Below, one piece after another: positions 9,033-35,772 of a DNA stretch of 64,000 nucleotides; position 1 is the stretch's first letter; each line of letters starts with the position of its first letter. The position numbers and the translations under genes were made by a program. This DNA is from Pectobacterium wasabiae CFBP 3304. GTDB taxonomy: Bacteria > Pseudomonadota > Gammaproteobacteria > Enterobacterales > Enterobacteriaceae. Under the pieces are notes generated by a model. The model was not told the DNA's origin and did not search any database. It was given only the letters and a program-made list of their open reading frames with translations. The stretch is from positions 2,356,001 through 2,420,000 of the forward strand of contig NZ_CP015750.1 of the NCBI RefSeq assembly GCF_001742185.1, read 5' to 3'.

Positions 9033-9058
9033 GAGTCATTCATCAGCGCGTATAAGTA

Positions 9059-11599: not shown

Positions 11600-11650
11600 A
11601 GTTAGTAAAATATTGGCGCAGTTTAACGCAGCTTAATTTCATTGACAATG

Positions 11651-11675
11651 AATGATAATTGTTTCCATTATCATT
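11651..11675. promoter_or_regulatory. Fur-box-like palindrome
   Basis: AATGATAAT (11651-11659) and ATTATCATT (11667-11675) form a perfect 9-bp inverted repeat matching the GATAATGATAATCATTATC Fur consensus. It lies between the divergent MFS remnant and entC, as expected for iron repression of the siderophore genes. Confidence 0.75.
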
Positions 11676-11851
11676 TGTGATGTAGGTTTTATAATCAATA
11701 CATTCCTATTGTTAATCATTAACAGTTATGAAAGATGAACAATAAAATTGATTAACATCAATATAACCCCTACTTAGATAGAGGCGATAACCTGTCTATG
11801 GAAGGATTGACCAAACGTGTGACTTCATTGTAACTTAACTGCGCTTAATAT

Positions 11852-11880
11852 AAATGGTAATGATTTTAATAATCATTGGT
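11852..11880. promoter_or_regulatory. Second Fur-box-like palindrome at the entC promoter
   Basis: AATGATT (11859-11865) and AATCATT (11871-11877), embedded in GGTAATGATT...AATCATTGG, lie about 30 bases before the entC ATG. The position suits direct iron-dependent repression of the entCE(B)A operon. Confidence 0.7.
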
Positions 11881-11909
11881 ATTTAACTTGCGAGCTCAGG
11901 AGTTGCCTT

Positions 11910-14731: not shown

Positions 14732-14757
14732 TATTCAAAACCGATAAGGATGTTGTG

Positions 14758-14856
14758 ATGGCAATTCCTTCTATCCGTCAGTATCAAGGTGTTCGATCGC
14801 CGGTCTGCCGTGACAGCCTGTCACCGGATGAAAGCAGCGTGGAAATGGTGTGGTAG
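14758..14856 (+). pseudogene. entB: Isochorismatase remnant (entB N-terminus)
   Basis: A 32-codon frame exactly where entB lies in ent/cbs operons, between entE and entA. Its start MAIPSIRQYQ resembles the EntB/CbsB N-terminus (MAIPKLQAY in E. coli EntB). After about a dozen codons the similarity ends, and the frame closes at TAG 14854-14856, six bases before the entA ATG. About 260 codons are missing, covering both the isochorismatase and the aryl carrier domains. An in-frame or near-frame deletion is inferred. Confidence 0.75.
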
Positions 14857-14861
14857 GGAAA

Positions 14862-15647
14862 ATGATGAATAAGGTACAACCTCTTCAGTTTGATTTCAGC
14901 GGGAAAACCGTCTGGGTAACCGGTGCGGCGAGCGGCATTGGCGAAAGTATTGCCCGCCAGTTTGTCGCGCTGGGCGCGAGCGTGATCGGTTTCGACCGCG
15001 AATTCCGACATCAGGCCTCCCCGGATAAAGATCGCCCATTTTCCTGCGTGACGTTGGATATCAGCGAGCCGGACAGCGTGGCAGCCGTGTGTCGCCAGCA
15101 ACTGGCTGAAACGGGGCTCGACGTTCTGGTCAACGCCGCTGGCATTTTGCGTCTGGGTGACATCGATACGCTGAGCGTGGATGACTGGCACCAGTGTCTT
15201 AACGTCAATGCTTCTGGCACATTTTACCTGCTGAACGCACTGGTGCCGCATTTTAAGCGGCAGCGCCGTGGCGCGATTGTCTGCGTCGGCTCCAATGCCG
15301 CACATGTTCCTCGTATGCAAATGGCGGCGTACTGTGCCTCGAAAGCGGCGCTCACCAGCCTGTCTCACTGTGCCGGGTTGGAACTGGCACCTTACGGCGT
15401 GCGCTGTAATGTGGTGTCACCAGGATCGACGGATACGCCGATGCAACGCGGCATGTGGCACAGCGCCGATGCGGAACAGCGTACTATCGCGGGCTTTCCT
15501 GACCAGTACAAGCTGGGGATCCCGCTGAGTAAGATTGCGCAGCCGGAAGAGATCGGCAATACCGTAGTTTTTCTGGCTTCCGATCTAGCCAGCCACATCA
15601 CTATGCAGGACGTGGTGGTGGATGGTGGGGCAACGCTGACGGCCTGA
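14862..15647 (+). CDS. entA: 2,3-dihydro-2,3-dihydroxybenzoate dehydrogenase
   Basis: An NAD-dependent short-chain dehydrogenase that oxidises 2,3-dihydro-DHB to DHB. Visible motifs are the cofactor-binding TGAASGIG near the N-terminus, NAAG, and catalytic Ser and YCASK. 261 residues from ATG 14862 (or 14865), with TAGGGAAA as the ribosome binding site. It is the last gene of the operon and is followed by a very strong terminator. The gene is intact, but its substrate would need the isochorismatase activity that is lost here. Confidence 0.92.
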   Translation: MMNKVQPLQFDFSGKTVWVTGAASGIGESIARQFVALGASVIGFDREFRHQASPDKDRPFSCVTLDISEPDSVAAVCRQQLAETGLDVLVNAAGILRLGDIDTLSVDDWHQCLNVNASGTFYLLNALVPHFKRQRRGAIVCVGSNAAHVPRMQMAAYCASKAALTSLSHCAGLELAPYGVRCNVVSPGSTDTPMQRGMWHSADAEQRTIAGFPDQYKLGIPLSKIAQPEEIGNTVVFLASDLASHITMQDVVVDGGATLTA

Positions 15648-15727: not shown

Positions 15728-17236
15728 TCAGAACGATTGTAATGTACTGATTTTACCCTGCTGCCAGTTGATGTCAGATTGACGCAGTGACTGGCTGATA
15801 TCCACAAGGCTATTGGATGGCAATGATTTCGGTAGCAAATCTAGTCCGATCGTCGAGAATATCTGGCCGTAGGTATTGCGTAGCTCTGCATAGGCCAGAT
15901 CCTGACGTAGGCTGGCGTTGAGGGCGTTTAGCTCACCTTGAATCAACTGCAATTCGCCGATGCTGTTGGCCTTATAGCGGTTTCGTAGCTGTTCGACGAT
16001 TTGGGTATCGAGATCGCGCAATTCTGCACTGGTTTTATACTGTCGCTGTGCCTCATTGAAGTTGGCTCGGGCGATGTATAGCTGCGCCATAATCGCCAGC
16101 GACATTGCCTGACGCTGTACTTCCGACACGGATTCGTTAGCCTGCGCCACTTTACGCGCGGCCGGGCCGGATAGCAGGTTAAACAGGTTCCAGGTCGCTT
16201 TCACGCCGACGTCAGCCCAACTGTTGTTAACCAGGAAGGAGTTGCTGTCATAGTGGCCGCCTGCGCTAATTTCCACGCCGGGTAGCATGCGCAGCAGCGC
16301 CTTACGGGTTTCAGCGGCATGAATTCTTACCTGATAATCCTGTTCGCGCAATTCCGGGCGGCTGACCAGCGCGGTCTCTTCCAGCACCCTTACATCGACA
16401 TTCAATTGCGGTACGACTTCATCGCCGCTCTGTGGCAACGCGAGCTTGTAGGCCGTATCCAGCGGCAGATTCATCAAGGTTGCCAACTCCGTCTTGGCTA
16501 GCGACAGCGCACGGCGCTGCTCTTCCAACTGGCGCGTGGCGTCGATCAGCGCGCGCCGGTAGCTTAGTGCTTCAATCGGATCGCCAATCTGCTGCGATGA
16601 CATGCGTTCGCTCGCGTCACGTGCAGCGTTAACACGGGCGATCAGGCTGTCAATCTGCCCCAACAAGCGTTCGGCGGCTACAGCGCGCCAGTAGGCGGAG
16701 CGCACGTCTTGCAGGATGGTATGCACCACCTTGCGTTTACGCTCTTCGGCTATCCAGCGTTGATCCGATTTCTGCTGGGCAGTAACGTAGCTGACGCCAA
16801 AGTCGAGCACGTTCCACACCATGGTCAGATCGGCCACCTCGCGGTCGCGATCTTGTGAGGTGGATGGCTCCAGAGAGGTGCGTCCCGTTTCTACGCTGCG
16901 ACTACTGGAGGCGCTCATATTGTTACGCCCCACGTAGCCCGCCGATGCCGCCAGCTTCGGCAGCATATCGTAACGTGCCAGCTCCACCTGTTGCTGGCTC
17001 AGCGCATATTCCATCACCTTTAAGCGTGATTCGAGGTTGTATTTCAGCGCGCGCGCCATAGCATCATACAGCGTGATTGGTGCCGTGACCGGCTCCTGCT
17101 GGCTGAACATGGCGATTCGGTCCTGCTGGCTGCGCTGCCCGCTTTCGACCTTGCTGATCGGCTGGGTGGTCACGGCACAGCCGCTGGCGGCTAGCACGAT
17201 GGCGCTAAGGCTAAATAGTTTCCGACCCTTTAACAC
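15728..17236 (-). CDS. TolC-family outer-membrane efflux/secretion lipoprotein
   Basis: About 502 residues. The N-terminus is a lipoprotein signal (LSAIVLAASGC, lipobox Cys near residue 20). The body has the two long coiled-coil regions of TolC-type channel proteins, with paired repeats such as ALKYNLESRLKVMEYALSQQ-type helices and RPELREQDYQV. The GTG at 17236 is preferred because GAGGAG lies 7 bases upstream; the frame is open back to ATG 17263. It follows the giant LEPR/DUF4347 gene on the same strand with a 100-base gap, so it probably forms the outer-membrane exit duct for that protein together with the HlyD-type proteins further upstream. Confidence 0.85.
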   Translation of the reverse strand: MLKGRKLFSLSAIVLAASGCAVTTQPISKVESGQRSQQDRIAMFSQQEPVTAPITLYDAMARALKYNLESRLKVMEYALSQQQVELARYDMLPKLAASAGYVGRNNMSASSSRSVETGRTSLEPSTSQDRDREVADLTMVWNVLDFGVSYVTAQQKSDQRWIAEERKRKVVHTILQDVRSAYWRAVAAERLLGQIDSLIARVNAARDASERMSSQQIGDPIEALSYRRALIDATRQLEEQRRALSLAKTELATLMNLPLDTAYKLALPQSGDEVVPQLNVDVRVLEETALVSRPELREQDYQVRIHAAETRKALLRMLPGVEISAGGHYDSNSFLVNNSWADVGVKATWNLFNLLSGPAARKVAQANESVSEVQRQAMSLAIMAQLYIARANFNEAQRQYKTSAELRDLDTQIVEQLRNRYKANSIGELQLIQGELNALNASLRQDLAYAELRNTYGQIFSTIGLDLLPKSLPSNSLVDISQSLRQSDINWQQGKISTLQSF

Positions 17237-17337
17237 GATTCCGCTCCTCGTCATTATCATCATTACTAATGTTATTCTTGTGATGGTTCTGGTTGCTCTT
17301 GCGATCGTCTTGCGTATCGCTGCACTGTCGCGCAGGG

Positions 17338-20300
17338 TTACCCTTGCTGCTGACCACTTTCCTGCAATGCTTGCTCAATGGCTGCCAGGCGTTGCAGTTC
17401 CGAATCACCTATCTGTTGTAATTGCTGATGCAGCGAGGGCGTAAATGCCATGGAACGCCCAGTGCCGTCATCGGCGCTATTCATTGCGCTACTCGCCCCA
17501 TCGAATGGAACGTCCTTCCAACTGCCGCCGGAAAAAACCTCCATTGGCGTCAGCGAAGGCAGATAGATCCCCGAGAATGCGCTAGCCAGCGATGAGGTGC
17601 CGCCTAGCGCGGGATCTTTGCTGAAGCTGGGGAAGGAGCCTAGGGTGCTGTCAAAATTAACGCCAATACCGCTGGCTACGCCAGGTCCGAAAGTGCCCGC
17701 CACCTGGCTGACTGGGAGGGAGCCTCCCTCGGTGTTCTGGCGTCCGGTAGCGAAAATGGCAGACATCACTGACCTTGGTGCGCCGTCGTTACCCACGGTG
17801 AAACTGCCGAGCGACGGATTGGCAATCAGGTTATCCACCGTCGATGGTGCTGTCGTGACATCCTGCGTAGACAGTTGGCGCGTATCGCTGGATGACGCTG
17901 TTCTGCCGATACCGTCATTGGCTTTGAACTGCGGATCTCCGCCTACAAGGCTGCGTGTTACCGTCAGGCCAAAGCTGGTGCTGATGGACGTACTGCTGCC
18001 ATCGGTGGCCGTTACCCGGATCACCAACGTACCGATATCACCATTGCCCGGCGTGCCGGAGAAGGTGCCGATAGTGGGATCGAAGCGCAGCCAGCTCGGC
18101 AGCGGTGACCCGTTGGCGAGGGTAGCGCTTAGCGTCAGGGCGTCGCCATCCGGATCGCTAAAGGTGCCGTTCGGAATGGTGAAGTTGAGGCTACCATCCT
18201 GCGCTACGCTTTGCGGCGGGATCGGGGTGGACACCACTGGCGTATCGTTAACATTGGTCACCGTCAGGCCAAAGCTGGTGCTAATTGAGGTGTTGCTGTC
18301 GTCGGTGGCCGTTACCCGGATCACCAACGTACCCACATCGCCATTGCCCGGCGTGCCGGAGAAGGTGCCGATGGTGGGATCGAAGCGCAGCCAGCTCGGC
18401 AGCGGTGACCCGTCTGCCCGTGTGGCACTAAGTGTCAGGGTATCGCCATCCGGGTCAGTAAACGTGCCTGCGGGTACGGTAAAGTTAAAGCCACCATCCT
18501 GTGCCACGCTTTGCGGTGGAATAGGGGTGGATACTACCGGGGCATCGTTGACGTTAGTGACCGTCAAGCCAAAGCTGGTGCTAATTGAGGTGTTGCTGCC
18601 GTCGGTGGCCGTTACCCGGATCACCAACGTACCCACATCGCCATTGCCCGGCGTGCCGGAGAAGGTACCGATAGTGGGATCGAAGTGCAGCCAGCTCGGC
18701 AGCGGTGAACCGTCTGCCCGTGTAGCACTGAGCGTCAGAGTATCGCCATCCGGGTCAGTAAATGTGCCTGCGGGTACGGTAAAGTTAAAGCCACCATCCT
18801 GTGCCACGCTTTGCGGTGGGATTGGGGTGGACACCACTGGCGCATCGTTAACATTGGTTACCGTCAGGCCAAAGCTGGTACTGACGGATGTGCTGCTGCC
18901 GTCCGTGGCCGTTACCCTGATCACCAGCATCCCGACATCGCCATTGCCCGGCGTGCCGGAGAAGGTGCCGATGGTGGGATCGAAGTGCAGCCAGCTCGGC
19001 AGCGGTGACCCGTCTGCCCGTGTGGCACTGAGCGTCAGGGTATCCCCATCCGGATCGCTAAAGGTGCCTGTCGGTACGGTAAAGTTAAAGCCACCACCCT
19101 GCGCCACGTTTTGCGCGGGAATGGTGGCTGAGACCACCGGTGCATCGTTGATGTTGGTGACCGTCAGGCTAAAGGTGGTGCTGACTGAGGCATCACCGTC
19201 GTTGGCGGTGATCTTTATCGTCAGATTGCCGACATCGGCGTTGCCCGGTGTACCAGAGAAGGTGCCGGTGGTCGTGTTAAAGGTCAACCAACTTGGCAGC
19301 GGCGAACCGTCTGCCCGTGTAGCGCTCAGGGTTAGCGTATCGCCATCGGGATCGCTAAAGGTGCCTGCTGGGACGGTGAAGTTCAGGCTGCCACCTTGTG
19401 CCACGCTCTGCGGCGGAATGGTGCCGGAGACCACGGGGGCATCGTTAACGTTAGTGACGGTCAGGCTGAAAGTGGTGCTGACCGAGGCATCACCGTCGTT
19501 GGCGGTGATCTTGATCGTCAGATCGCCGACATCGGTGTTGCCCGGCGTGCCTGAGAAGGTGCGGGTGGCGGGATTAAAGCTCAGCCAGCTAGGCAGCGGT
19601 GAGCCATTCGCCAGCGTGGCGCTCAATGTCAGGGTATCGCCATCGGGGTCAGTAAAGGTGCCAGCAGGCACAGTGAAACTCAGGCTACCATCCTGCGCCA
19701 CGCTTTGCGCCGGTATCGGTGTCGCGACCACTGGCGCATGATTGACATCAGTCACGGTCAGATTGAAGGTGGTGCTCACTGAGGCATCGCCATCGTTAGC
19801 AGTGACCTTGATGCTTAAGATGCCGATATCGCTGCCGCTTGGCGTCCCCGTAAAGGTGCCGGTGGCGGGATTAAAGCTCAGCCAGCTCGGCAGTGGTGAG
19901 CCGTCGGCGAGGGTGGCACTGAGCGTCAGGGTGTCGCCATCCGGATCGCTAAAGGTGCCCGCAGGCATGGTAAAGTTGAACCCACCATCCTGTGCCACGG
20001 TTTGTGGCGGGATCGGGGTGCCTACCTCCGGCGCATCATTAACGTTGGTAACGGTTAGGCTAAAGGTAGTACTGACTGACGCATTACCATCGTTAGCGGT
20101 CACCTTGATGCTCAGGCTGCCGACATCACCATTGGCCGGGATACCGGAGAAGGTGCGGGTAGCGGCATTAAAGGTCAGCCAACTGGGCAATGCGGTGCCA
20201 TTCGCCAGGGTAGCGGTAAATGTCAGGGTATCACCATCGGGATCGGTAAAGGTTCCAGCGGGAACGGTGTAACTCAGCGCGCTATCCTGTGCCACGCTTT

Positions 20301-23300
20301 GCGCCGGAATGGTAGCGGACACCACCGGTGCGTCGTTAACATTGGTAACGGTCAGGCTAAAACTGGTACTGACCGAGGCATCACCGTCATTAGCTGTCAC
20401 TTTGATGCTCAGGCTACCCACATCGCCATTGCCCGGCGTACCGGAGAAGGTGCGGGTAGCGGGATTAAACGTCAGCCAGCTCGGCAGCGGTGAGCCATTC
20501 GCCAGCGTGGCCGTCAATGTCAGGGTATCGCCATCGGGATCGCTAAAGGTGCCCGCCGGAACGGTGAAATTCAGGCTGCCATCCTGCGCCACGCTTTGTG
20601 CCGGAATGGTGGCAGAGACCACCGGTGCATCGTTGACGTTGGTGACTGTCAGGCTAAAGCTGGTGCTGATCGCGGCATTGCTGCCGTCGGTAGCGGTGAC
20701 TTTGATGCTCAGGCTGCCGACATGACTATTGGCCGGGGTACCGGAAAAGGTGCCGGTCGCCGGATCGAAACTCAGCCAGCCTGGCAGCGGCGACCCATCG
20801 CTCAGGGTGGCGCTCAGGGTGAGCGTATCGCCGACATCTGCATCGGTAAAGGTGCCCGCAGGCACGGTGAAACTCAGGCTGTCATCCTGTGCGACACTTT
20901 GTGCGGGGATCGGTGTGGCGACGACAGGCGCATCGTTGACGTTGGTGACCGTCAGGCTAAAGCTGGTGCTGATCGCGGCATTGCTGCCGTCGGTAGCGGT
21001 GACTTTGATGCTCAGGCTGCCGACATCACCATTGGCCGGGGTGCCGGAGAAGGTGCCGGTCGCCGGATCGAAACTCAGCCAGCCTGGCAGCGGCGACCCA
21101 TCGCTCAGGGTGGCGCTCAGGGTGAGCGTATCGCCGACATCTGCATCGGTAAAGGTGCCCGCAGGCACGGTGAAACTCAGGCTGTCATCCTGTACGACAC
21201 TTTGTGCGGGGATGGGCGTCGCCACCACCGGCGGATTGTTGACCACCACCGTCAGCGTTGAAGTCGCACTGCGGCTGGCATCGTCGTTCGCGGTGACGGT
21301 AATGGTGCGCACACCACCGGTCGGCGCGACCGCAGCATTAACATACACTATCGCGCGCAGCGCGGTCTGGAAGGCTTCCGTTGTGGCACCGCCAGTCAGC
21401 GTCACTGTCTGGCTACCGTTGCCGGACACGTTAATTCCCGCAGCATGTGCGGCTAACAGTGCTTCACGCGATAACGTGAGGTTCTCGCCACTGCCATCGA
21501 TGGCGCCCGCCAGAGAAAGGTTCAATGTCCAGATACGCGTATCGCCATCTGTTTGGATCAGGCTTGCTAACGCGTCACTAATGGCGACGCCGTTATTCAG
21601 CGGCGTCGATACGGTCGCCGCATAATCCGTGCCGCTCCCCGCGCCATTCAAATCCAACTGCGGGCTAACGCCAGATGCAAACTGTGACTCATAGGCTCCG
21701 ATATCAACGCTGTTCTGCCGCACACGATCCATGCCGCGAACATCTGTGTCGCCAGTCACATAAAAACGATCGCCCTGATTAATGGCATTGCTGGCGTTGA
21801 CCGCCAGACGCGGATCGGTTGCCGAAACCAGATTGACGCTGCCGCCAATAATATTATTGGCGCCGTTCAGGGTGTAGGTCCCGGTGGAGCCGTTGTTGTA
21901 CGTGACGAGATCCAGGGTATTGCCCGCAATGACGCTGTTATGTACGGAGGCTGTCCACCGGGTGGTGTTGTTGATAAATTCAAACACGATGCCCGCATCC
22001 TGCCCGGTGAAGGTGACATTCATCAGGCTGATGTTGGTCGCGGTCGGGTTGGACGAATTGGCAATCACATGGAGGGCGGCGGCACCGTATTGGTTCACGG
22101 TACCTCCAGGTTCTTTGTTGTTATAGATGGCCGAATTGGTGAGCGACAGTGAGACGGTCTGTTGGGTGCCGGACACGTAAAGCTTAATAACTCCATCGAC
22201 AGACCCGGAGCCAGACAGGATGTTGTCGTGAATATTGACCCGATCCAGATCGACGATGTAGGTGCCCACATTGAGATTGTAGAGGTCGATCAGTCCGTTG
22301 CCCCAGCCGTTGTCGGTGTTTCCTGACATCGTGACATTGTAGAGACGGAAGTTAACATCCGTCGCGAAGCCGCTAATGCCCAGCACGCCGCCAGAATCCA
22401 TGTTATCAGACGTTGTAAAATCGGTTAACGTCAGGTTCTGGATAGCAAAGGTCATCGTTGATGCCATAATCTGAAAACCTGAATAGCCGCCGCCATTCAA
22501 GGTAAAACTCTGCCCGTCGATCAGCAGGGTTTGCGTTGGTGACAGAATACTACTGTTTAGCGTAACGTCGGTTTGGAACACAATGCGATCGATGCCCGCC
22601 GTGACGTTGGCCCAGTGCAGCGCTTCACGCAGGCTCAAACCGCCGCCGTCACTCATATCCTCTGCCAGTGAACTGCCGAATACCGCATCAACGCCGGTAT
22701 CGGCTCCGGACGTGACGTACAAGGCACCATTGCTATTCTGTACGTTGACCGACGCCTTGATGTTGAGTGCTGCTGTGTTATTGCTGCTGCCGCTGTCTCT
22801 GATACTGCTGAGTGTCACGTCACGCGTGGCGGTGGTGACGGTGCTGCTGCTGTTGCCGTAGCGCATGCCATCCACTAACCCCGCGACCTGACTGGCGTTG
22901 GCACTCATGGCACTCAGTTGCACGGTGACGAGGTTACCGGCGCGCGTCACGCTATAGTTACCGATACCGTCGAGCGAGCCGCTGTTGTTGGTCGCCAGAC
23001 TGATGTTCTTGCCCGCAATATTGATAAACTCGCCGCCGTCGCTCACGTTGCTGACGGTGAGTGTCAGGCCGGAGAACGTCTGACCGCTGTCGTTGGTATT
23101 AGCGCTGACGTTGCTGAACAGGTCGATAGCGCCCGCCATTCCGCTGATAAACACCGGGTTACTGGCGCTGGCGCTCAGGGTCGGTGCCTGACTCGGTGCG
23201 GTGGTGGTGGCATCGAGTTTGACCACGCTGGCGGTCAGATTGCCTGCGCTGTCTTTGGCGACCATATACACATCGTACGCCGTTGCCGCCGCCAGGCCAG

Positions 23301-25482
23301 TCAGGGTAAAGGTGCGGCTGTAGGGCGCACTGTTGACGATGGTACTGCCTGAGGCGAATGCCAGACTGCCCGCAGCGTTCTGCCCGTTGACGATTTGGGT
23401 GGCGCTCGGCGCGGTGGCACCGTCTGGCAGCACCACATAATAGATGCTGCCTGCTTCGTTAAGGCTGCTGCTGAGGTCGAATCCGCTGCTGGTGGCATTC
23501 GACACCGCGGGGGCGATATCAAAGGTTGGCGCGACGTTATCTACCACCGTCAGCGTAAAGGTTTTTTCATAGGTATCGCTACCGTCGGAAACCTGTAGAC
23601 GAATGGAGTAGGTGCCTGCCGCCATGGCAGCGGCATCCACCGCACGTAGTGAGTTGCCGACCAGCGTGAAGCGGGCGTTATCGGTGCTGCCGACGCCGCT
23701 GACCAACGAGTAAGTAAAGGTGGTGGAATCGACATCCGTGGCTGTCAGCGTACCGACCGTGCCGTTGCTGCCGATCGATTGGCCGAAGCTGCTTGATGAG
23801 AGCGTGATATCTGTCGGTGCATCGTTGACCGCAACCACGGCCACGGTGCTGGTGATATTGCCGGGGCTGTAGCTGTTGTTGCTGGCACCAGAATCGGTGA
23901 CCTGAGTCAGGGTCACGACCCGCGCGGTGGTATGGGGATTCTCGCTGCTGTTGCCGTAGGTCATGCCAGATAGCAAGGTGCCCATATCGGCATTGCTCAG
24001 CGTTGCTCCGCTTAGGCTGATGGTGGCCGTGCCAGCGCTGAGGGAGACACTGGCTGAACCGTAACCGCTGCCGAGCGAGACGCTATTGCCATTGATCAGT
24101 GATACCTTGACGCCATTGATATTCAGGTATTCGGTACTGTCTGCTACGTTGGTTACGGTAAAGGTGGCGCCGGTAAAGGTTTGTCCACTGTCGTTGGTAT
24201 CGGCGGTAATACCAGTGAATAAGCCGACGGCGGCACCGTTTTCGGTGTAGGTCGGATTGGTGCCGCTACCGCTGACGCTTGGTAGGGTATCACTGCTACC
24301 GCCAAGATTGGTCGACGTGAAGTGCCACACTAAAACCCCATCGCCTTTTGTACCGTCTTTGTCGATATGAAAGGTAATGGTTTTGTCGGTGCCGATAACG
24401 CTGGCTGAAAGCTCCGCCACACTGGTGGTTGCGCTGTTATCTTTGGTGATCGACGTGATAGCGAGCAATGTACCGTTAGTGAGGTTATTGAACACCAGGT
24501 CAAACGACTCAAGCCCCACAAACGGCCCCTGACCGTTGAGTATGGTCATGGTGATGGTCGAGGTGGCCGGGTCGATATCAATGTACCATTCGGAACTGGC
24601 TGCATCCCTTAAATCCAGGAATACTTCGCTGCCCGGCCCCACTGGGTTGGTGCTATAATCTAAACCATCGATCCACAGTGTCACCTCAGTATCGTTGACG
24701 TGCAGGGTATGCTGGTAGCTGTCCATCTGTAGCGTGGCGGCTTCAATCGCGCCGGTCTGTACTTCGAGTTCCCAGTTGCCACCCAAGCCGGTGTTGTCGG
24801 TTGAGGCAGCGATATCCGCGCCAGTGATCTGCCCCAGCAGAGAGACAAAGCTTTGCCCAGAATCCTGGGCAACTTCGCAGCCGTAAAGCAGTAAATCTCC
24901 TGATTCCGTCAGCGCTGCGCCCAGCGTGGCTAAATCGGCGGCGCGTGCGTCGGCCGTCTTGCTGTCCAGCGTTAACGAACCCAGTTGCAGTTCGCCCTCA
25001 CCACCGTGGCTAAGTACATGAATTGCGTCATAGCCGCTGTGAGTTTTTGCCCATTCAGTCAGTTGGCTCAGACCATCTTTGCTGCCATCCAGCAATATCA
25101 CTTCTACGCCTGACGGTACATTGTCCACCAGAGTTTGGTAATCGGTTAATGAGGTATCAATAAACACCACTTCTTTGCGCGAACCTTCACCAGCCACGGC
25201 GACATCGCTAGTGCCGTTATCTTGGGTCACCGCATGATCGCCTTGCCCATTATCGGTCTGATTGTTGTTGTGGGTCTGGGAGTCATCCTTGGCTGCGTTT
25301 GCGGGCTGTGCGGCCTCGCTAGCGTTTTGTGTAGCATCGGCCTGTGTGACGGTGGCCGCGACGGCGCCATCAAACATCATACGTGCTTCCAGTGCGTATC
25401 CGAGTGGTTGCGGCAAGGCTGCACTCGTCGTAGCGGCACGGTTGCGGGTTTTGCCTGTTTGTGTGAGAAGGCGCCAAAGCAT
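17338..25482 (-). CDS. Giant LEPR/DUF4347 surface protein with cadherin-like repeats
   Basis: 2,714 residues from ATG 25482, chosen because GGGAG lies 7 bases upstream; ATG 25545 is possible but lacks a binding site. Domains in order: an N-terminal LEPR-type motif (LEARMMFDGA, about residues 30-45) instead of a Sec signal; a Gln/Asn/Asp-rich linker; a DUF4347 domain (about 100-247) with LSHG (His159) and YGC (Cys202); several Ig/cadherin-like modules; a right-handed beta-helix region with an LREAL motif ending in DIGAYESQ (about 1264), as in choice-of-anchor Q domains; then eleven ~99-residue dystroglycan/cadherin-like repeats (about 1414-2510). The C-terminus is a Gln-rich tail without RTX nonapeptides. 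It is probably a secreted or surface adhesin-like protein exported by the flanking TolC/HlyD/M50 genes. Confidence 0.85.
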   Translation of the reverse strand: MLWRLLTQTGKTRNRAATTSAALPQPLGYALEARMMFDGAVAATVTQADATQNASEAAQPANAAKDDSQTHNNNQTDNGQGDHAVTQDNGTSDVAVAGEGSRKEVVFIDTSLTDYQTLVDNVPSGVEVILLDGSKDGLSQLTEWAKTHSGYDAIHVLSHGGEGELQLGSLTLDSKTADARAADLATLGAALTESGDLLLYGCEVAQDSGQSFVSLLGQITGADIAASTDNTGLGGNWELEVQTGAIEAATLQMDSYQHTLHVNDTEVTLWIDGLDYSTNPVGPGSEVFLDLRDAASSEWYIDIDPATSTITMTILNGQGPFVGLESFDLVFNNLTNGTLLAITSITKDNSATTSVAELSASVIGTDKTITFHIDKDGTKGDGVLVWHFTSTNLGGSSDTLPSVSGSGTNPTYTENGAAVGLFTGITADTNDSGQTFTGATFTVTNVADSTEYLNINGVKVSLINGNSVSLGSGYGSASVSLSAGTATISLSGATLSNADMGTLLSGMTYGNSSENPHTTARVVTLTQVTDSGASNNSYSPGNITSTVAVVAVNDAPTDITLSSSSFGQSIGSNGTVGTLTATDVDSTTFTYSLVSGVGSTDNARFTLVGNSLRAVDAAAMAAGTYSIRLQVSDGSDTYEKTFTLTVVDNVAPTFDIAPAVSNATSSGFDLSSSLNEAGSIYYVVLPDGATAPSATQIVNGQNAAGSLAFASGSTIVNSAPYSRTFTLTGLAAATAYDVYMVAKDSAGNLTASVVKLDATTTAPSQAPTLSASASNPVFISGMAGAIDLFSNVSANTNDSGQTFSGLTLTVSNVSDGGEFINIAGKNISLATNNSGSLDGIGNYSVTRAGNLVTVQLSAMSANASQVAGLVDGMRYGNSSSTVTTATRDVTLSSIRDSGSSNNTAALNIKASVNVQNSNGALYVTSGADTGVDAVFGSSLAEDMSDGGGLSLREALHWANVTAGIDRIVFQTDVTLNSSILSPTQTLLIDGQSFTLNGGGYSGFQIMASTMTFAIQNLTLTDFTTSDNMDSGGVLGISGFATDVNFRLYNVTMSGNTDNGWGNGLIDLYNLNVGTYIVDLDRVNIHDNILSGSGSVDGVIKLYVSGTQQTVSLSLTNSAIYNNKEPGGTVNQYGAAALHVIANSSNPTATNISLMNVTFTGQDAGIVFEFINNTTRWTASVHNSVIAGNTLDLVTYNNGSTGTYTLNGANNIIGGSVNLVSATDPRLAVNASNAINQGDRFYVTGDTDVRGMDRVRQNSVDIGAYESQFASGVSPQLDLNGAGSGTDYAATVSTPLNNGVAISDALASLIQTDGDTRIWTLNLSLAGAIDGSGENLTLSREALLAAHAAGINVSGNGSQTVTLTGGATTEAFQTALRAIVYVNAAVAPTGGVRTITVTANDDASRSATSTLTVVVNNPPVVATPIPAQSVVQDDSLSFTVPAGTFTDADVGDTLTLSATLSDGSPLPGWLSFDPATGTFSGTPANGDVGSLSIKVTATDGSNAAISTSFSLTVTNVNDAPVVATPIPAQSVAQDDSLSFTVPAGTFTDADVGDTLTLSATLSDGSPLPGWLSFDPATGTFSGTPANSHVGSLSIKVTATDGSNAAISTSFSLTVTNVNDAPVVSATIPAQSVAQDGSLNFTVPAGTFSDPDGDTLTLTATLANGSPLPSWLTFNPATRTFSGTPGNGDVGSLSIKVTANDGDASVSTSFSLTVTNVNDAPVVSATIPAQSVAQDSALSYTVPAGTFTDPDGDTLTFTATLANGTALPSWLTFNAATRTFSGIPANGDVGSLSIKVTANDGNASVSTTFSLTVTNVNDAPEVGTPIPPQTVAQDGGFNFTMPAGTFSDPDGDTLTLSATLADGSPLPSWLSFNPATGTFTGTPSGSDIGILSIKVTANDGDASVSTTFNLTVTDVNHAPVVATPIPAQSVAQDGSLSFTVPAGTFTDPDGDTLTLSATLANGSPLPSWLSFNPATRTFSGTPGNTDVGDLTIKITANDGDASVSTTFSLTVTNVNDAPVVSGTIPPQSVAQGGSLNFTVPAGTFSDPDGDTLTLSATRADGSPLPSWLTFNTTTGTFSGTPGNADVGNLTIKITANDGDASVSTTFSLTVTNINDAPVVSATIPAQNVAQGGGFNFTVPTGTFSDPDGDTLTLSATRADGSPLPSWLHFDPTIGTFSGTPGNGDVGMLVIRVTATDGSSTSVSTSFGLTVTNVNDAPVVSTPIPPQSVAQDGGFNFTVPAGTFTDPDGDTLTLSATRADGSPLPSWLHFDPTIGTFSGTPGNGDVGTLVIRVTATDGSNTSISTSFGLTVTNVNDAPVVSTPIPPQSVAQDGGFNFTVPAGTFTDPDGDTLTLSATRADGSPLPSWLRFDPTIGTFSGTPGNGDVGTLVIRVTATDDSNTSISTSFGLTVTNVNDTPVVSTPIPPQSVAQDGSLNFTIPNGTFSDPDGDALTLSATLANGSPLPSWLRFDPTIGTFSGTPGNGDIGTLVIRVTATDGSSTSISTSFGLTVTRSLVGGDPQFKANDGIGRTASSSDTRQLSTQDVTTAPSTVDNLIANPSLGSFTVGNDGAPRSVMSAIFATGRQNTEGGSLPVSQVAGTFGPGVASGIGVNFDSTLGSFPSFSKDPALGGTSSLASAFSGIYLPSLTPMEVFSGGSWKDVPFDGASSAMNSADDGTGRSMAFTPSLHQQLQQIGDSELQRLAAIEQALQESGQQQG
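17950..21240 (-). repeat. Eleven tandem ~298-bp coding repeats
   Basis: Each unit encodes an NDAPVV-type start, an IPAQSVAQDG stretch, FTVPAGTFSDPDGDTLTL, SWLTF/SWLHF and FSGTPGNGDVG, and ends near SLTVTNV. Eleven units can be counted by the recurring PVV...QSVAQ segment. Neighbouring units are very similar at DNA level, especially the three or four nearest 17950-19100. This suggests recent duplication or gene conversion and makes unit number liable to change by recombination or misassembly. Confidence 0.9.
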
Positions 25483-25545
25483 AGGTTTACTCCCGGTCAT
25501 CATTTTGGTGCAACGCTGTTTATCGGATAACAGCCGGATTTGCAT

Positions 25546-25792
25546 TGCTGGGAGACGGAAAACCCCATGTAGTACTAAATGTAAAACAAATAATTGCTAC
25601 ATGATTGTTCTGTTGTCTTAATGTAAATTTAAGTGAAATATTAAAACTTGTGAATATAAATTTCCTAAAAGTAAGACAAATCTCTATTGATTTTTTTTGT
25701 TTTCAGAATTCATATTTTTAATGGTGAAATTTTCTTACGATAATTAATCCGTAACTCGATGATATTAATATTTAAGTCCTTGAATAAGGAAA
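25546..25792. other. AT-rich intergenic region upstream of the giant gene
   Basis: No convincing coding sequence. Strongly AT-rich, probably holding the promoter of the giant gene. The adjacent GTGCCGGG/CCCGGCAC hairpin is listed separately. Confidence 0.5.
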
Positions 25793-25814
25793 GTGCCGGG
25801 AGAATTCCCGGCAC
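25793..25814. terminator. Hairpin downstream of the collar-protein gene
   Basis: GTGCCGGG and CCCGGCAC form an 8-bp GC-rich stem around AGAATT. It follows the restored stop of the collar gene (25852) on the minus strand. The T tract is modest on that strand. Confidence 0.6.
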
Positions 25815-25851
25815 GCTTAATTTTTCAAAAAATCAGCATGTCAAAACCCGG

Positions 25852-26663
25852 CTAGTTTGGATTGATTGGGTAGATACCTTGCACGGCAATACAGGCGGTC
25901 AACCCCATCGCGGGATCGCGCACCGAGAATGGCATTCCCCCCCGGTATTATTACCCACCACGGTTTCCGGCACTTTGACGGTGAACGACGGTAAGCTGGC
26001 TACCCCCGTCACGGTCACATCGGCGGGCAACGTCGATCCGCTGCCCGGTTTGGCTGCCTGATACGGCCCTTTAAAGCTGGCATTCTGAGTTGCTGCACCG
26101 ACCGGTACGGTGGCACTGATCGCCGTCAGGAAGTTTGCACCTGCCGTCGGCGTGGCACCGCCCGTAGCGGGCGTAGCAGCGGCGAGCGGTAGCGCGGCCG
26201 TAACATTGAGATTGCCCGTGGTGGCAGGCACTAGCACATTAAAGGTGTTGGTGAGTGATTGCGTGGTGGGGTGGGTGTGAGGTGCGATATTGCTTGCCGC
26301 TAGAGTGGCGGTTTCGGCACCCAGCGATTGGCCGCGTGTTATCAGGCTGAGCCCCGCACCTTGCCCTGAGCCAACGAGGCTTCTACCGCGCAGGTCGGGC
26401 AACGTAAAATTGCCGGTTTGCTGCGAGCCGCCCCATAAATTGCCGATCAACGAATAGAGTGCCTGATAGCCGTTGATCGAGAGTGATTGCCCTGCTGCGG
26501 GCAGATAACCGCTCGGACAGTAACTGGTGACCATATAACATACCGAGCCGATATAGGGTTCATCGCCTGCACAGGCGGAGGCGTCTTCTGCATGAAACAT
26601 CATAACGGCCAACGATGCCGCAAGGGCAGACTTGGCATAGAATCGTTTAGTTAACTTCATCAT
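25852..26663 (-). pseudogene. Secreted phage tail-collar-domain protein, frameshifted in a G homopolymer
   Basis: The protein has a signal-peptide-like N-terminus (basic KLTKRFYAKS, hydrophobic core, cleavage near ASA) and then a tail-collar domain typical of MdpB/microcystin-dependent-like proteins: GYLPAAGQSLSINGYQALYSLIG, split here only for description, then LPDLRGRSLVG. The frame as read ends at 25899 with an aberrant tail (ECHSRCAIPRWG). Adding one G to the seven-base run at 25937-25943 restores the family ending, GGGMPFSVRDPAMGLTACIA then VQGIYPINPN, with TAG at 25852. The 812-base span is consistent with one lost base. It lies inside the secretion locus. It is a true frameshift, a phase-variable tract or a sequencing error. 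Confidence 0.75.
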
Positions 26664-26956
26664 GAATCCCCTTGATAGAATGACTGTTTTTTTGTTGGTT
26701 TTACTCGGGTAAAGAGCGTGTTGATTAGCTGTCTTATTATTTTGTTGTTATCATATTGACTTATTTTTTAGTCACTTATGAACCATAGCTTAAGCGCGAC
26801 TTTTTGTTGGTTACCGGCAGAAAAAAATAGCAATATTTTGAAAAATACCGCTTCACAGTAAATAGGCTGATGAGGGGAAATAGGTTGGCTGCGGGCTTAA
26901 AGGTGAAGTATTGCCCGCAAGGGTTGATTAGGGTCAAACAGAGGGATTAGGGTCGA

Positions 26957-29062
26957 TCAAAAACCGCTTTCGCGGATGCCTAAGGCGGCGACGCGACGCC
27001 AGACCGCACCCAGTAGTGATTCTTTCTCTCCCGCCACGACTACGCTACCGCGCAGAGGCTGTTGTGGTAACTGCGCCTGAGAGGACAGGGTGAACTGCAC
27101 GCGGTATTGTGCTTGTACTGGCTGCGGATTACGTTCGTTATCGCGCCGCACGGCAATCGGGCCGTGGCGATCGGAAGCGAGCATCTCTTGTTGTAGATAA
27201 GCGCTGCCTGTGGGAGCGATCTCATGAAGCGTGACGTCCAGACGGGGAAACGCGGGATCATCGGCAAGGAAGACGCCGTGCATGCCTTCTTGAGTGCGCC
27301 TGAGTGATTCCTCGGGGATATAGCCAACCACTCGGCCTTGTGCGGGTTCCACCACCCGAAGTAATGGCGTATCCGCCGTTAGCCAGCGCCCTGCCGTCAT
27401 GTCACGTGCCAGATCGCGTACCATGCCCGTTTGCGGCGCCCGAATCGTCAGGCGTTGACGCTGTGCTGCTAACCCACGATAACGTGCTAACGCCTCCGCT
27501 AACTGCCGATCCATAACCTGGATTTCGCTGGCGGTTTCTTGTCGTGCAGCTCCACGTTGTCGCTGCTGTTGTAATTGGGCGATGCGTTGACGCTCAATAT
27601 TGAGGCGGTAATCCAGATCGACCGAGGTCAGCTCCAGCAGAATGTCCCCGGTATTAACCCGCTGACCATCGGTGACGTGTAGCTGATTAACCTGTGCTGG
27701 TACCGGACTGTAAAGGGTACTGACCTTGTCCGCCTCTAACACGGCGGGAATGCGGATACTGCCACCCCACGGATAGAGCAGAATCAACAATAGCGTCAGG
27801 CAGATCAGTGCACTGCGCAAAAAAGCGGTAGGGTGTATTGATTTACGCATTGACCACCAGGCATAAGCTTCTTTCACTATCGGAAGCGCGATAAACCAAA
27901 CGATCTCAACCAGCATTAACCCAATGCCGATTACCTTGATAAAAAAGTGGTAAACCACCAGCGCGATGCCAAAGAACAGGAAAAAGCGCCATATCCAGGA
28001 GGCATAACCCCACACCAGCAGTTTGCGCTGCAGCGATGGGGATAAGTTTTCCGGCGCTGGGTGACCATGACCAAACAGACTTTCCCGCAACCGCCAGCGG
28101 CAGAGCGCATAGGCACGTTCTTGCAAGTTTTCTACTCGCCAGAAATCGCTCAGTAAAAAGTAGCCATCGAAGCGCATCAAGGGGTTAAGGTTGACGACCA
28201 GCGTGGTCAGCCACGTCGCGCTGGAAAGCATAAACGCCGCCGTGCGTGCCGGGCCATCGGGCAGTAATGCCCAGACCAAGAGCGCAATCACCGCCAACAT
28301 CAGTTCGGCCAGAATGCCGCCTGCGCCGATCAGCAAACGCGCCTGACGATCCTTCAGTTTCCAGGCATCGGTGGTGTCAGTATAAAACAAGGGAAATAAT
28401 ACGATAAAGGCAACGCCCATGCTTTGCACGCGGCAGCCTGCTCGTTTCGCCATAAAGGCGTGGCCTAGTTCATGGATAAATTTGGCGAATACCAGAGATA
28501 TACCGAACACAGCCATGCCAGACAGGCTGAACAGATGCGGAAACGAATGGGTGTAACGTACCCAGTCTCGACTGACCAAAAATAAACCCAGCAGCAGGAT
28601 TAATGGAAATATCCAGATCAGAAAGGGCGCACCATAGCGCTGTAGCCACGGCCAGCAGCGGTTGAGTACCGGATCGGGTCGCCACAAAGGAATACGGAAA
28701 AACAGATACTGGTGCAGCACGCTTTTCCACAAGCTGGTGCGCATCGCCTGGGCTTTGCCCAGATAGCGCTGACGTTGTTCAGGATCGCTTGCTGCGACCA
28801 GATCGTGCTGGCGCAGGAACTGCATCAGTTGCTCCAACTCTTTCACTCGCAGTGGCAGGCCAGGCTCACTGTTGGCGGCAGCCAGGATTTGCTGTGGCTG
28901 GCGCAACGACCAATGACGCAGCAGGCGGATAGCCGAGGGGGTCAGGGTAAAATAACGTCCGGTTATCGGATCGGACAGCACCCACTGCGGGGCTCCGTTG
29001 ATGCCAGGGGCTGATTCTGCCAATTGAAGATCGGCGCGTAGGGGAGGCAGTTGCGGATTCAT
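26957..29062 (-). CDS. PqqD-like/M50 metalloprotease/HlyD-adaptor fusion protein
   Basis: 701 residues. About residues 25-95 resemble a PqqD-like winged-helix (GRYFTLTPSAIRLL and so on). A polytopic membrane region follows, with the zinc motif HELGH at 197-201 and the second M50 landmark NLNPLMRFDGYF. The last third is a HlyD-type periplasmic adaptor (LEADKVSTLYSPVPAQVNQL then DGQRVNTGDILLEL, and a late ITANDGD-free beta domain). This matches proteins annotated as putative peptide zinc metalloproteases linked to peptide export. It starts with ATGA overlap on the GAF/HlyD gene and is cotranscribed with it. It is probably the inner-membrane core of the export machine, and may cut or gate substrates. 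Confidence 0.82.
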   Translation of the reverse strand: MNPQLPPLRADLQLAESAPGINGAPQWVLSDPITGRYFTLTPSAIRLLRHWSLRQPQQILAAANSEPGLPLRVKELEQLMQFLRQHDLVAASDPEQRQRYLGKAQAMRTSLWKSVLHQYLFFRIPLWRPDPVLNRCWPWLQRYGAPFLIWIFPLILLLGLFLVSRDWVRYTHSFPHLFSLSGMAVFGISLVFAKFIHELGHAFMAKRAGCRVQSMGVAFIVLFPLFYTDTTDAWKLKDRQARLLIGAGGILAELMLAVIALLVWALLPDGPARTAAFMLSSATWLTTLVVNLNPLMRFDGYFLLSDFWRVENLQERAYALCRWRLRESLFGHGHPAPENLSPSLQRKLLVWGYASWIWRFFLFFGIALVVYHFFIKVIGIGLMLVEIVWFIALPIVKEAYAWWSMRKSIHPTAFLRSALICLTLLLILLYPWGGSIRIPAVLEADKVSTLYSPVPAQVNQLHVTDGQRVNTGDILLELTSVDLDYRLNIERQRIAQLQQQRQRGAARQETASEIQVMDRQLAEALARYRGLAAQRQRLTIRAPQTGMVRDLARDMTAGRWLTADTPLLRVVEPAQGRVVGYIPEESLRRTQEGMHGVFLADDPAFPRLDVTLHEIAPTGSAYLQQEMLASDRHGPIAVRRDNERNPQPVQAQYRVQFTLSSQAQLPQQPLRGSVVVAGEKESLLGAVWRRVAALGIRESGF

Positions 29063-30387
29063 AGCCCAATTGCCTGACGGATCACTGCCAGCGGTCGACG
29101 GAACAGATAAACGGCAAGGGGAACATAGTCGCCGGAAATTTTTGCCGTGCCGCGCAGGCCGATACGTGGTGGTGTGTCAGTAAAGCGTGCATCCAGACGA
29201 TAGGCCAGATTGCCGGCTGGCGTCAGTTCAGACTCATAGGCGATACGTTCTAACAATGCGGCGTGCGGCGTCAGTGGATCACTGTCCAAAAACAGGGTAA
29301 TGGGTGCCTCTTGCTGCAACCGGATGGCGTCGCCCACGTCCAACTCGATGCGTAACGCGGTGAGTGCGGGGTCTGCTAACTCCATCAAACGTTCGCCGGT
29401 GCGTACCGGCTTACCCATCCAGCGTGTGGCGTCGGCGAACACCGCAATGCCATCCCGTTCGGCACGGACCTCTGAACGACTCAGCAAGGCATTGGCGTAA
29501 TCGCGTTCCGCTCGTTTTTGTGCCACCTGAGCAGCGAGAAAGTCGAGCCGCGCTTTGGAGTCTGCATCCTGAAACGCGCGTTGGGAACTCGCACGGTGTT
29601 CCGCTTCGGCGACATTCAGCGCACGTTCGGCCACATCCGCCTGGGCTTTCAGGCTTGTACTGTCAAAGCGAACCAACACCTCCCCTTGACGCACACTCTG
29701 GTTCGGTAACACGGTGAAAGATTGGATCACGCCGTCCAGCGGGGCGGCGACGACACGGCCTTGATGAGGAATAACTTCGGCGGGTGCCAACACGGACTGG
29801 CGCACCGGAATAAACAGACAAGCGAGCAGTAGCAGCACAGGCACGGCGATCTTCCATCGAGCCTGTCGGCGACGCCAGAGGGTCGTTTGCGGTTCGAGTG
29901 CCAGCCAGGCGTGGCTAAAAGCGCCGCTGAGTTGTTCCGCCAGCACCTGATCGGTACTCTGCCACGGCTGTTCTCGTGCATACCAAATGGCACCGAAGGG
30001 TTTCCCCTGACGATCGTCGAGGGGCGACCATAGTGCCTCTGGGGCAGACAGCGCCTGCCAATCTTTACGGCTTTGTTCATCAAGCTGTGAGGCTTCAATC
30101 ACTGTACATTGGGCCAACGTTTGCTCATCGGCAGATGACAACTGGGTGCAGGCACGTTCAACAAAAGCGACAAAGGGCGCATGGGGCGCGGGTTGGGTGA
30201 CGCCGGTTACGGCGCGCACTCGACCATTGATGATCAAGGCGGCATGGCGAAAACCGAACAGCGGCTGGCTGTCGTTGACGATGCAGTAAGCCAGCTCTTC
30301 GGTGCTGTTGGCTGCCCGCGCTTGCCGTTCAACGTCAAGGAAACGGGCAAACGTGGCGGTGCTGGCAGACGTTGGCATAGTGCTCAC
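29059..30387 (-). CDS. GAF-like/HlyD membrane-fusion protein
   Basis: 442 residues. The N-terminal ~165 residues look like a cytoplasmic GAF-type domain (ELAYCIVNDSQPLFGFRHAA, then PFGAIWYARE). A single membrane helix follows (IAVPVLLLLACLFI, about 180-195). The periplasmic part is HlyD-like with a barrel-sandwich lipoyl motif (VVAAPLDGVIQSF and VLVRFDS) and a coiled coil. The GTG at 30387 overlaps the upstream stop (GTGA); ATG 30378 is an alternative start. It is coupled to the genes on either side by overlaps. It presumably links the inner-membrane component to the TolC-type channel. The GAF part suggests a sensory or docking role, which is inference. Confidence 0.8.
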   Translation of the reverse strand: MSTMPTSASTATFARFLDVERQARAANSTEELAYCIVNDSQPLFGFRHAALIINGRVRAVTGVTQPAPHAPFVAFVERACTQLSSADEQTLAQCTVIEASQLDEQSRKDWQALSAPEALWSPLDDRQGKPFGAIWYAREQPWQSTDQVLAEQLSGAFSHAWLALEPQTTLWRRRQARWKIAVPVLLLLACLFIPVRQSVLAPAEVIPHQGRVVAAPLDGVIQSFTVLPNQSVRQGEVLVRFDSTSLKAQADVAERALNVAEAEHRASSQRAFQDADSKARLDFLAAQVAQKRAERDYANALLSRSEVRAERDGIAVFADATRWMGKPVRTGERLMELADPALTALRIELDVGDAIRLQQEAPITLFLDSDPLTPHAALLERIAYESELTPAGNLAYRLDARFTDTPPRIGLRGTAKISGDYVPLAVYLFRRPLAVIRQAIGL

Positions 30388-31187
30388 CGGGCCTCCGAAA
30401 ACTGGGCCGTTCCGCTCATCCCTGCCATCAAGGTATCGTCCGCGTGAGCCAGCGTACCCGTCAGGCCGAGGGTTTGACTGCTTTCATCAATGCGTGCGCC
30501 AAGTCGTGTGACTTTGGCTTGTAATGGCTTACCGGTTTCATCGGGGGTGAAGGTAAAGGTTAATCCGGGTTTTAGTACCGACAACAGACGTGATGGCACC
30601 AGCAAGTTGATCTCCAGATGGTGATTATTGACGATATCCAGAACCGGCGCGCCAATACCAACGCTTTCGTATGTTTGGGAGCGGCGTTTTACCACTTGTC
30701 CATCGAACGGGGCCAGAAGGCGGCAGCGGTTGACCTGGATTTGATAGACCTGGCTTTCCGCCTGAGCCTGTGCAAAGTGCGCTGCGGATAACGATACCGC
30801 GTGTCTCCCTACCGATTTCATCTGTGCCAGTTGCTGATTTTGGCTCAGTTCCGCTTCTGCGGCTCGCGTGGCAGCAGAGGCTGCGGCCAATTGGGCCTGA
30901 TAAATCGAACAGTCAAACCGCACTAAAAGATCGCCTTTCTTGAAGGATTCTCCTTCTCGAAACGGTATTTCTACAATACGCCCAGCCAAATCGCTGGACA
31001 GCGTGGCTTGATCGACGGCGATCAGGATCCCTCGCGCCTGATTGTCTGCGGGTGCAGCGGTTTGATTATCATGAGAAGGCATCGCCAAGAGTGGGTCGCT
31101 CGTTTGGGCATGAGCGCTAAACGCCAATAGGCAAAATGCCAGCGGCGTAAAAGCGCGACGAAGTGCTGAGTTATTGAAACTATTCAC
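30384..31187 (-). CDS. Periplasmic adaptor (HlyD/RND membrane-fusion type)
   Basis: 267 residues with a cleavable signal peptide (hydrophobic LAFCLLAFSAHAQ, cleavage after AHA). Lipoyl-type half motifs (GRIVEIPFREGESFKKGDLL and CRLLAPFDGQVV) surround a short coiled coil, followed by a beta-barrel domain. It is shorter than usual RND adaptors (about 350-400 residues) and lacks a membrane anchor or lipobox. It is the first gene of the overlapping three-gene unit with the GAF/HlyD and M50 genes. It probably joins them in a periplasmic tunnel to the TolC-type protein. Confidence 0.8.
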   Translation of the reverse strand: MNSFNNSALRRAFTPLAFCLLAFSAHAQTSDPLLAMPSHDNQTAAPADNQARGILIAVDQATLSSDLAGRIVEIPFREGESFKKGDLLVRFDCSIYQAQLAAASAATRAAEAELSQNQQLAQMKSVGRHAVSLSAAHFAQAQAESQVYQIQVNRCRLLAPFDGQVVKRRSQTYESVGIGAPVLDIVNNHHLEINLLVPSRLLSVLKPGLTFTFTPDETGKPLQAKVTRLGARIDESSQTLGLTGTLAHADDTLMAGMSGTAQFSEAR

Positions 31188-33053: not shown

Positions 33054-33242
33054 CGAAATATTTTGGGGCGTCAGTATAATTATTATCATCACGCTATTAA
33101 TTGGCGTGGTAGGCGTGTTGTTATTATTTAACGCCATGGCGTTGCCCAAATTATCCACACCACATAATGATAAAATCAAGGCGTCATCATTGTTGTTAAT
33201 GACAACATGGAGCGACAGGATGATGCAAAGGGAAGGTTTATT

Positions 33243-34396: not shown

Positions 34397-34428
34397 AGGC
34401 CCGTCCCCTAGCGACAAGGATTGCCGAT

Positions 34429-35766: not shown

Positions 35767-35772
35767 TTTGTC

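Follow-up and report, generated by a model that had tools for sequence, protein, structure and literature searches.

A candidate exporter of a tagged giant protein, without a linked ATPase, in Pectobacterium wasabiae

A candidate export locus

The window examined here is a 64-kb stretch of the genome of the soft-rot bacterium Pectobacterium wasabiae CFBP 3304 (a single contig of 5.04 Mb), and its subject is a minus-strand locus in which a giant repeat-bearing protein is encoded beside an M50 peptidase fused to HlyD, a GAF-HlyD protein, a further HlyD-type adaptor and a TolC-type outer-membrane lipoprotein. It is proposed that this locus is probably an exporter devoted to the giant encoded beside it, belonging to one class (class a) of an M50-HlyD/GAF-HlyD platform. 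Sequence comparison across related loci reveals a conserved machine, a linked giant with an N-terminal tag, dialects of that tag that match the exporter, and no linked ATPase. The features of the locus are as follows.

30384..31187, minus strand: periplasmic adaptor (HlyD/RND_mfp-like), 267 residues, P0006; PF13437 (HlyD_3) 3.6e-13, NCBIfam RND_mfp 130.5 bits against a cut-off of 94.9
29059..30387, minus strand: GAF-HlyD protein, 442 residues, P0005; HlyD_3 1.1e-10
26957..29062, minus strand: PqqD-like/M50/HlyD fusion, 701 residues, P0004; Peptidase_M50 2.1e-10 and HlyD_3 9.5e-14
28748..29062, minus strand: PqqD/RRE-like N-terminal domain of P0004, residues 1-105, from AlphaFold2 topology and relatives
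28460..28474, minus strand: HELGH of P0004, residues 197-201, with H197, E198, G200 and H201 invariant in 62 sequences
25899..26663, minus strand: Collar-domain protein, 254 residues, P0003; PF07484 4.7e-18, N-terminal signal judged by eye
25793..25814, minus strand: terminator-like hairpin between the collar and giant genes; 9-bp stem with 7 GC pairs and a T-rich tail
17338..25545, minus strand: giant protein P0002, 2,735 residues, the proposed substrate; DUF4347 and He_PIG/Big_9/cadherin-like (Ig/cadherin-like) repeats by Pfam
25363..25392, minus strand: tag LEARMMFDGA of P0002, residues 52-61, a motif common to 93 distinct leaders at related loci
24706..25170, minus strand: DUF4347 domain of P0002, residues 126-280, predicted cysteine protease with H180 and C223; PF14252 3.3e-50
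15728..17263, minus strand: TolC-type outer-membrane lipoprotein, 511 residues, P0001; PF02321 (OEP) 2.8e-39, LAASGC lipobox judged by eye

The six-gene cluster of the initial annotation is borne out: every open reading frame (ORF) lies at the place and on the strand given there and has Pfam support, and both an HlyD-type adaptor and a TolC-type outer-membrane factor are recognized (Pfam, NCBIfam). Its statement that no ATP-binding cassette (ABC) transporter gene lies between the TolC-type gene and the phosphonate operon also holds; from 5 to 31 kb of the window the ABC profile marks no ORF, and the ABC genes that it does mark belong to the phn operon (e.g. 39166-39885). For the giant, the annotated DUF4347 domain stands, as does the length of 2,714 residues if translation starts at the ATG at codon 22. 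The annotated LEPR motif needs qualifying: the tag reads LEARMMFDGA, which departs from the classical LEPR-XLL of the protein family so named, and an NCBIfam scan (E<=0.01) lists no LEPR model for this protein.

Conservation of the module and its two classes

Class a denotes long matches to the window's M50 family and class b shorter, weaker ones (about 190-240 bits), a division of our own. The 161 loci compared are 80 named ones (the best 80 of 538, mostly from Pseudomonas), 80 stretches from other genomes and the window itself; by the score of the M50 ORF, 135 fall in class a (over 400 bits) and 16 in class b (100-400 bits), and at 10 no M50 ORF was called by the simple ORF caller used, which also missed the class-b SecA genes at L169 and L170. 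On the same strand and within 3.5 kb, an HlyD-like ORF of at least 340 residues ('GAFH') is found at 110 of the 135 class-a loci and a shorter HlyD-like ORF, the adaptor, at 94. A gene-neighbourhood survey, of the kind put forward in the initial annotation, shows a tagged giant beside the M50-HlyD gene at 105 of 135 loci and a same-strand ABC gene within 3.5 kb at one (22 loci have an ABC gene within 9 kb).

Among 299 sampled Pseudomonadota genomes, 87 have some match to the window's M50 family and 74 a class-a match; all 74 were carried forward, the cut or broken matches of G004, G077 and G291 included, and the SecA and ABC surveys did not include the 13 genomes whose matches were weaker. DUF4347 occurs in 67 of the 74 class-a genomes versus 17 of the 225 others (Fisher 4e-42, the genomes not being independent), and at least three of those 17 (G048, G144, G287) hold a class-b locus. 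The tagged giants and this contrast together support an ABC-less, TolC-linked module with an M50/HlyD core. To that extent the original idea that the M50 fusion replaces the ABC component survives; as a motor in its own right the fusion is doubtful, since P0004 lacks a Walker A pattern and the sister class carries a secondary SecA.

The parent module is already in print. The main text of Kamneva, Poudel and Ward (2015) describes clusters of M50-HlyD, GAF-HlyD and HlyD proteins, sometimes with an OEP, with a secondary SecA and no ABC gene, and suggests SecA as the ATPase and the M50 protein as the pore (PMC4452313); the words LEPR, adhesin and Pseudomonas are absent from that main text by word search. 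Class a has the same three core proteins, sometimes an OEP, and no ABC gene. The M50-HlyD homologue with HExxH recurs in the window, and a GAF-HlyD protein and a further HlyD protein lie nearby there, as at the 110 and 94 loci counted above. The published clusters are defined by their secondary SecA, whereas SecA is found within 9 kb of 0/135 class-a loci. Near class-b M50 genes the ORF caller finds it in 13 of 16 cases, or 15 of 16 when L169 and L170 are added from the genome profile listing (Fisher 9e-20 between classes, the loci not being independent). Inspection of the listed class-a places by eye likewise gave no secondary SecA within 10 kb, the nearest on one contig being about 59 kb away (G014). 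The class-a and SecA-linked M50 proteins are homologous over their full length (hhalign 100%, E 2.7e-95), and a tree of 73 of them (first 440 residues) separates class a (59) from class b (14) with support 100/100. Judged by sequence, class a is a SecA-free sister class of the Kamneva module. Searches of the open-licence literature, preprints excluded, found one paper on the parent module and none on class a or its tag; the initial description of a poorly described system is apt in that class a is nearly unstudied, and too strong in that the SecA-bearing form and the M50-as-pore idea have been published (PMC4452313).

The window's genome has a single SecA; a second SecA_DEAD match (1780758) was rejected as RecG. 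Single SecA_DEAD matches are found in 45 of the 74 class-a genomes, including the incomplete G165, whose lone match is of the secondary kind, and two further incomplete assemblies (G149, G203) have none. The window's genome also holds a second class-a locus, listed as L148 and L228.

G000:C1:2628494-2644203: second class-a locus

Its M50 gene (2642104-2644200) is about 39% identical to that of the window, and OEP, adaptor and GAF-HlyD genes adjoin it. The giant gene at this locus, whose tag reads LEPRMMFDAA, is broken into two ORFs, of 1,606 and 1,587 residues, where the congener G222 has one ORF of 3,244. A rhamnogalacturonate-lyase-like gene follows this giant.

The N-terminal tag

The tag was defined as the strict motif LE.R..[FLY][DS].A among residues 1-110 of an ORF at least 400 residues long. 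It is found at 100 of 135 class-a loci, a count that omits four tagged ORFs at loci with an uncalled M50 ORF; inspection adds five (L033, L067, L224, G037, G103) to give the 105 above. The motif occurs in 93 of the 1,680 ORFs of at least 200 residues in the 161 loci, and 87 of these 93 are at least 900 residues long. In the 93 distinct leaders, many of which come from Pseudomonas and so are not independent, the search pattern itself imposes L, E, R and A. Five further residues are conserved although the pattern does not demand them: D at +7 (in 93, with S also permitted), F at +6 (in 90, with L and Y also permitted), P at +2 (in 72), G at +8 (in 84) and T at +13 (in 78).

Nine class-b loci have a tag, seven of the form xExRxxLSAD (five starting with L, one with I, one with M) and two variants, LEPRVLLNSD and LEPRVLLDGT; these are closer to the name LEPR-XLL than LEARMMFDGA is. 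The class-b sample comprises 20 stretches, some extended, which beyond these nine mostly do not reach the start of the giant; at L172 the upstream ORF of 1,216 residues, partly masked near its start, carries no tag. The rough chance level of the two patterns, taken from patterns one base short and out of register, is 8/299 and 5/299 genomes. By comparison of these sequences, there are two tag dialects, LExRxxFDGA in class a and LExRxxLSAD in class b, following the two exporter clades.

The M50 fusion, the GAF-HlyD protein and related systems

P0004 has both elements of a site-2 protease (M50), the HExxH motif and a conserved NPxxxxDG-like stretch. In 62 sequences H197, E198, G200, H201, P294, D299 and G300 are invariant and N293 nearly so, and with its zinc-site residues so conserved, leader processing by this site is plausible. 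The M50, HlyD and HELGH assignments of the initial annotation are confirmed by sequence; the PqqD-like part escapes detection by sequence and is suggested by fold topology and relatives. The AlphaFold2 model of residues 1-105 (strands E13-17, E26-30 and E37-40, helices H42-49, H56-64 and H73-85) agrees with the beta-beta-beta-alpha-alpha-alpha winged helix of PqqD/RRE domains, from which leader binding is at most predicted. PF05402 is matched at E<=1 by 3 of 62 close and 0 of 40 distant class-a M50 proteins and by 7 of 14 of class b, and the two classes align across this N-terminal part too. Foldseek and VIA-align matches of the P0004 model are dominated by its HlyD part, so that the PqqD-like and M50 parts are barely probed by them. 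Among the matches listed, the closest named relatives are 93-96% identical and come from Pectobacterium; a second homologue search gave at least 120 rows, the named ones being Pectobacterium near-copies.

P0005 consists of a GAF-like region (8-168), a helix presumed to span the membrane (171-190) and an HlyD part after it. Its annotation as a GAF/HlyD protein is sound for HlyD; Pfam detects no GAF domain in P0005 itself, though 6 of its 34 close relatives yield one (best 4.9e-5), and GAF domains are matched by the AlphaFold2 model of P0005. The HlyD parts of both P0004 and P0005 resemble MacA in their structure models, as in MacAB-TolC and other tripartite pumps; unlike these pumps, the locus has no MacB, RND or MFS partner and holds the M50 protein in the pump's place.

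Daptide and YydH M50 peptidases use RRE-type leader recognition. P0004 resembles them in its M50 core, PqqD-like N-terminal part and leader logic, and its best NCBIfam match is daptide_HExxH (142.9 bits). It differs in scoring under that family's cut-off of 300, in its fusion to HlyD and in having a giant protein, not a small peptide, as proposed substrate. This likeness, with the hint of sensing given by the GAF domain, would fit a leader-processing or envelope-signalling system of the daptide or YydH kind that merely sits beside an adhesin gene, an explanation we regard as highly improbable: the locus combines two HlyD parts with an adaptor and an OEP, and both exporter clades are accompanied by tagged giants in matching dialects.

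Type I secretion proceeds through HlyB-HlyD-TolC, with LapBCE serving giant adhesins. The present locus shares the HlyD-type adaptors, the TolC-type outer-membrane factor and a giant repeat-rich substrate, and differs in that class a has no linked ABC ATPase, a tag that is N-terminal, apparently in place of a C-terminal signal, and few RTX repeats.

Weighing the proposal and the source of energy

Several points weigh against a dedicated exporter with the architecture proposed. The case for it comes from genes, sequence comparison and predicted structures. Thirty of the 135 class-a loci have no tagged giant in the stretch covered; at seven of these a large ORF runs off the stretch and most of the others have no such ORF, and at five (L043, L197, L203, L220, L226) a complete ORF of at least 900 residues lacks the tag. 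Pfam finds no PqqD domain in 59 of 62 close and 40 of 40 distant class-a M50 proteins. The giant's leader lacks a hydrophobic helix, so that neither intramembrane cleavage of the standard kind nor entry into SecYEG is easy to envisage. One argument in favour of the proposal, that leaders are less hydrophobic than secretion signals, is qualified: a 13-residue mean of 1.6 is passed by 17% of 104 leaders, the corresponding shares being 93% for 107 adaptors, 79% for 43 OEPs and 3% for internal stretches, and this measure is imperfect, passing just 33% of 61 collar ORFs that look signal-bearing by eye. Finally, 52 of the 74 class-a genomes, the window's included, have at least one curated type I ABC protein of the LssB, PrtD or HlyB kind, so that its use in trans is possible there, and general ABC exporters (MsbA-like) may also be the motor.

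Counts over the curated cut-offs in the 74 genomes are 38 for LssB, 19 for PrtD and 17 for HlyB, and the window's genome has two LssB-type genes and one of the PrtD type. Such an ABC protein, encoded elsewhere, could power export while the M50 protein merely trims or regulates. We consider this quite improbable: in 22 of the 74 genomes not one of the three kinds passes its cut-off (best 13 to 16 candidates per genome scored), nine have no type I ABC match at 1e-120, four of which are rated 100% complete (G023, G213, G298, G004), the giants are poor in RTX repeats, and the common tag is N-terminal. Because of these 22 and nine genomes, the sequence data speak against a type I ABC in trans as the general motor; in the window's genome it could still serve. 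Seven of the nine also have a single SecA_DEAD match.

No ATPase motif is seen in the conserved module proteins, and several genomes have neither a type I ABC nor a secondary SecA elsewhere. Export might proceed without nucleoside triphosphate, with the multi-helix M50 protein and the GAF-HlyD protein forming an inner-membrane conduit and proton-motive force, leader cleavage and folding outside driving the chain. The Walker A pattern is absent from all 62 close M50 and all 34 GAF-HlyD proteins and occurs in one of 40 distant M50 proteins, the 135 loci have no linked ATPase save the sporadic ABC genes noted above, and the M50 protein as pore has been suggested in the 2015 paper (PMC4452313). 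The sister class, however, pairs homologous proteins with SecA, as if a motor were needed. We know of no motor-free membrane crossing by an unfolded chain of thousands of residues, and a route of this kind seems unlikely. By analogy with the secondary SecA of the sister class, class a may after all have a motor, one of the SecA kind. For the same reason, recruitment of the housekeeping SecA/SecYEG by the platform is our first choice for the inner-membrane step, one to which we would give somewhat less than an even chance.

The giant protein

P0002 has two Cys residues and no RTX repeats; of 40 complete giants, 29 have no RTX repeat, 10 have one and a single giant has six. By sequence its DUF4347 is predicted to be a cysteine-protease-like domain that retains a His/Cys pair; of 102 distinct aligned rows, 100 keep the His and 101 the Cys. 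The domain matches 9qpe_G by sequence (29.3 bits, E 6.4e-6). In the report on this structure (PDB 9qpe), the DUF4347 protein PA0256/Tce1 is termed a putative cysteine protease (PMC13323088). It shares sequence likeness and the conserved His and Cys with the domain of the giant; PA0256/Tce1 is described there as a free-standing type VI effector, whereas here DUF4347 is one domain of a giant. Matches between the DUF4347 profile and de novo TIM barrels were dismissed as chance, single repeats scoring about 10 bits. Another report places the DUF4347 protein BTH_II1339 of Burkholderia thailandensis among the proteins most raised in stationary phase (PMC12322963).

A C-terminal stretch (the last 130 residues) is common to 19 of the 40 complete giants, that of the window included (17338-17730), and is perhaps an anchor. 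This stretch ends in a likely amphipathic helix. The class-b giant of G014:C25 (L174, L242, L249) is apparently one frame of more than 12,000 codons, pieced together from adjoining stretches, beside a SecA-type module.

Gene organization and neighbouring genes

Adjacent machinery genes (adaptor, GAF-HlyD, M50) overlap by four bases (30387/30384 and 29062/29059). With a terminator-like hairpin (25793-25814) placed between the collar and giant genes, the giant and OEP genes may be transcribed separately from the machinery; the region has no surplus of such hairpins (15, where shuffles give 15.9). Sigma-70-like promoter hits were rejected, with 8 in the region against 10.1 in shuffles. The Collar protein P0003 is not a core part of the module; a collar-like gene lies within 9 kb at 54 of 135 class-a loci. 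At seven Pseudomonas loci (L025, L026, L029, L030, L032, L033, L035) a collar-domain gene on the opposite strand lies between the M50 gene and the giant.

A siderophore-like set (phosphopantetheinyl transferase, TonB receptor, chorismate-binding, AMP-binding and short-chain dehydrogenase genes) occupies 8236-15647 of the window. At 32121-41011, carbon-phosphorus lyase genes (PhnI, PhnJ, ABC ATPase) follow phosphoenolpyruvate mutase, thiamine-pyrophosphate-enzyme and dehydrogenase-like genes, an odd pairing of phosphonate-making with phosphonate-breaking genes. An exopolysaccharide-like cluster (sugar transferase, BBP2-type barrel, Wzz/GNVR and polysaccharide synthesis genes) lies near the giant locus at 42800-49401, and the two may both serve the surface matrix.

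Proposed pathway and significance

We propose that the giant, in which no clear Sec signal is evident, bears the N-terminal tag LExRxxFDGA. In the cytosol this tag would be bound by the PqqD-like part of the M50 fusion, as the fold of that part and the two dialects suggest. The M50 site, its zinc-binding residues kept, may then clip the leader at the membrane. Fold and gene order are consistent with an exit path in which the M50 and GAF proteins, through their periplasmic HlyD parts and together with the adaptor, dock on the TolC-type lipoprotein, and the GAF domain, as a putative cytosolic sensor, could gate export. Outside the cell the giant may be cleaved by its own DUF4347 domain, and with its repeats it would serve as an adhesin or matrix fibre. 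A bolder reading, which we regard as possible but doubtful, is a TolC-linked exporter without a dedicated NTPase, in which a PqqD-like/intramembrane protease/membrane-fusion protein is the inner-membrane gate and giants are directed to it by a short N-terminal code that has evolved alongside it (FDGA in the SecA-free class, LSAD in the SecA class).

Class-a genes are present in about a quarter of the sampled Pseudomonadota genomes (74/299). If the proposal is true, it would add a further way to energise trans-envelope export and name likely substrates for an orphan system, and the LEPR-like motifs of giant proteins would become a readable export code that predicts the exporter of each giant.

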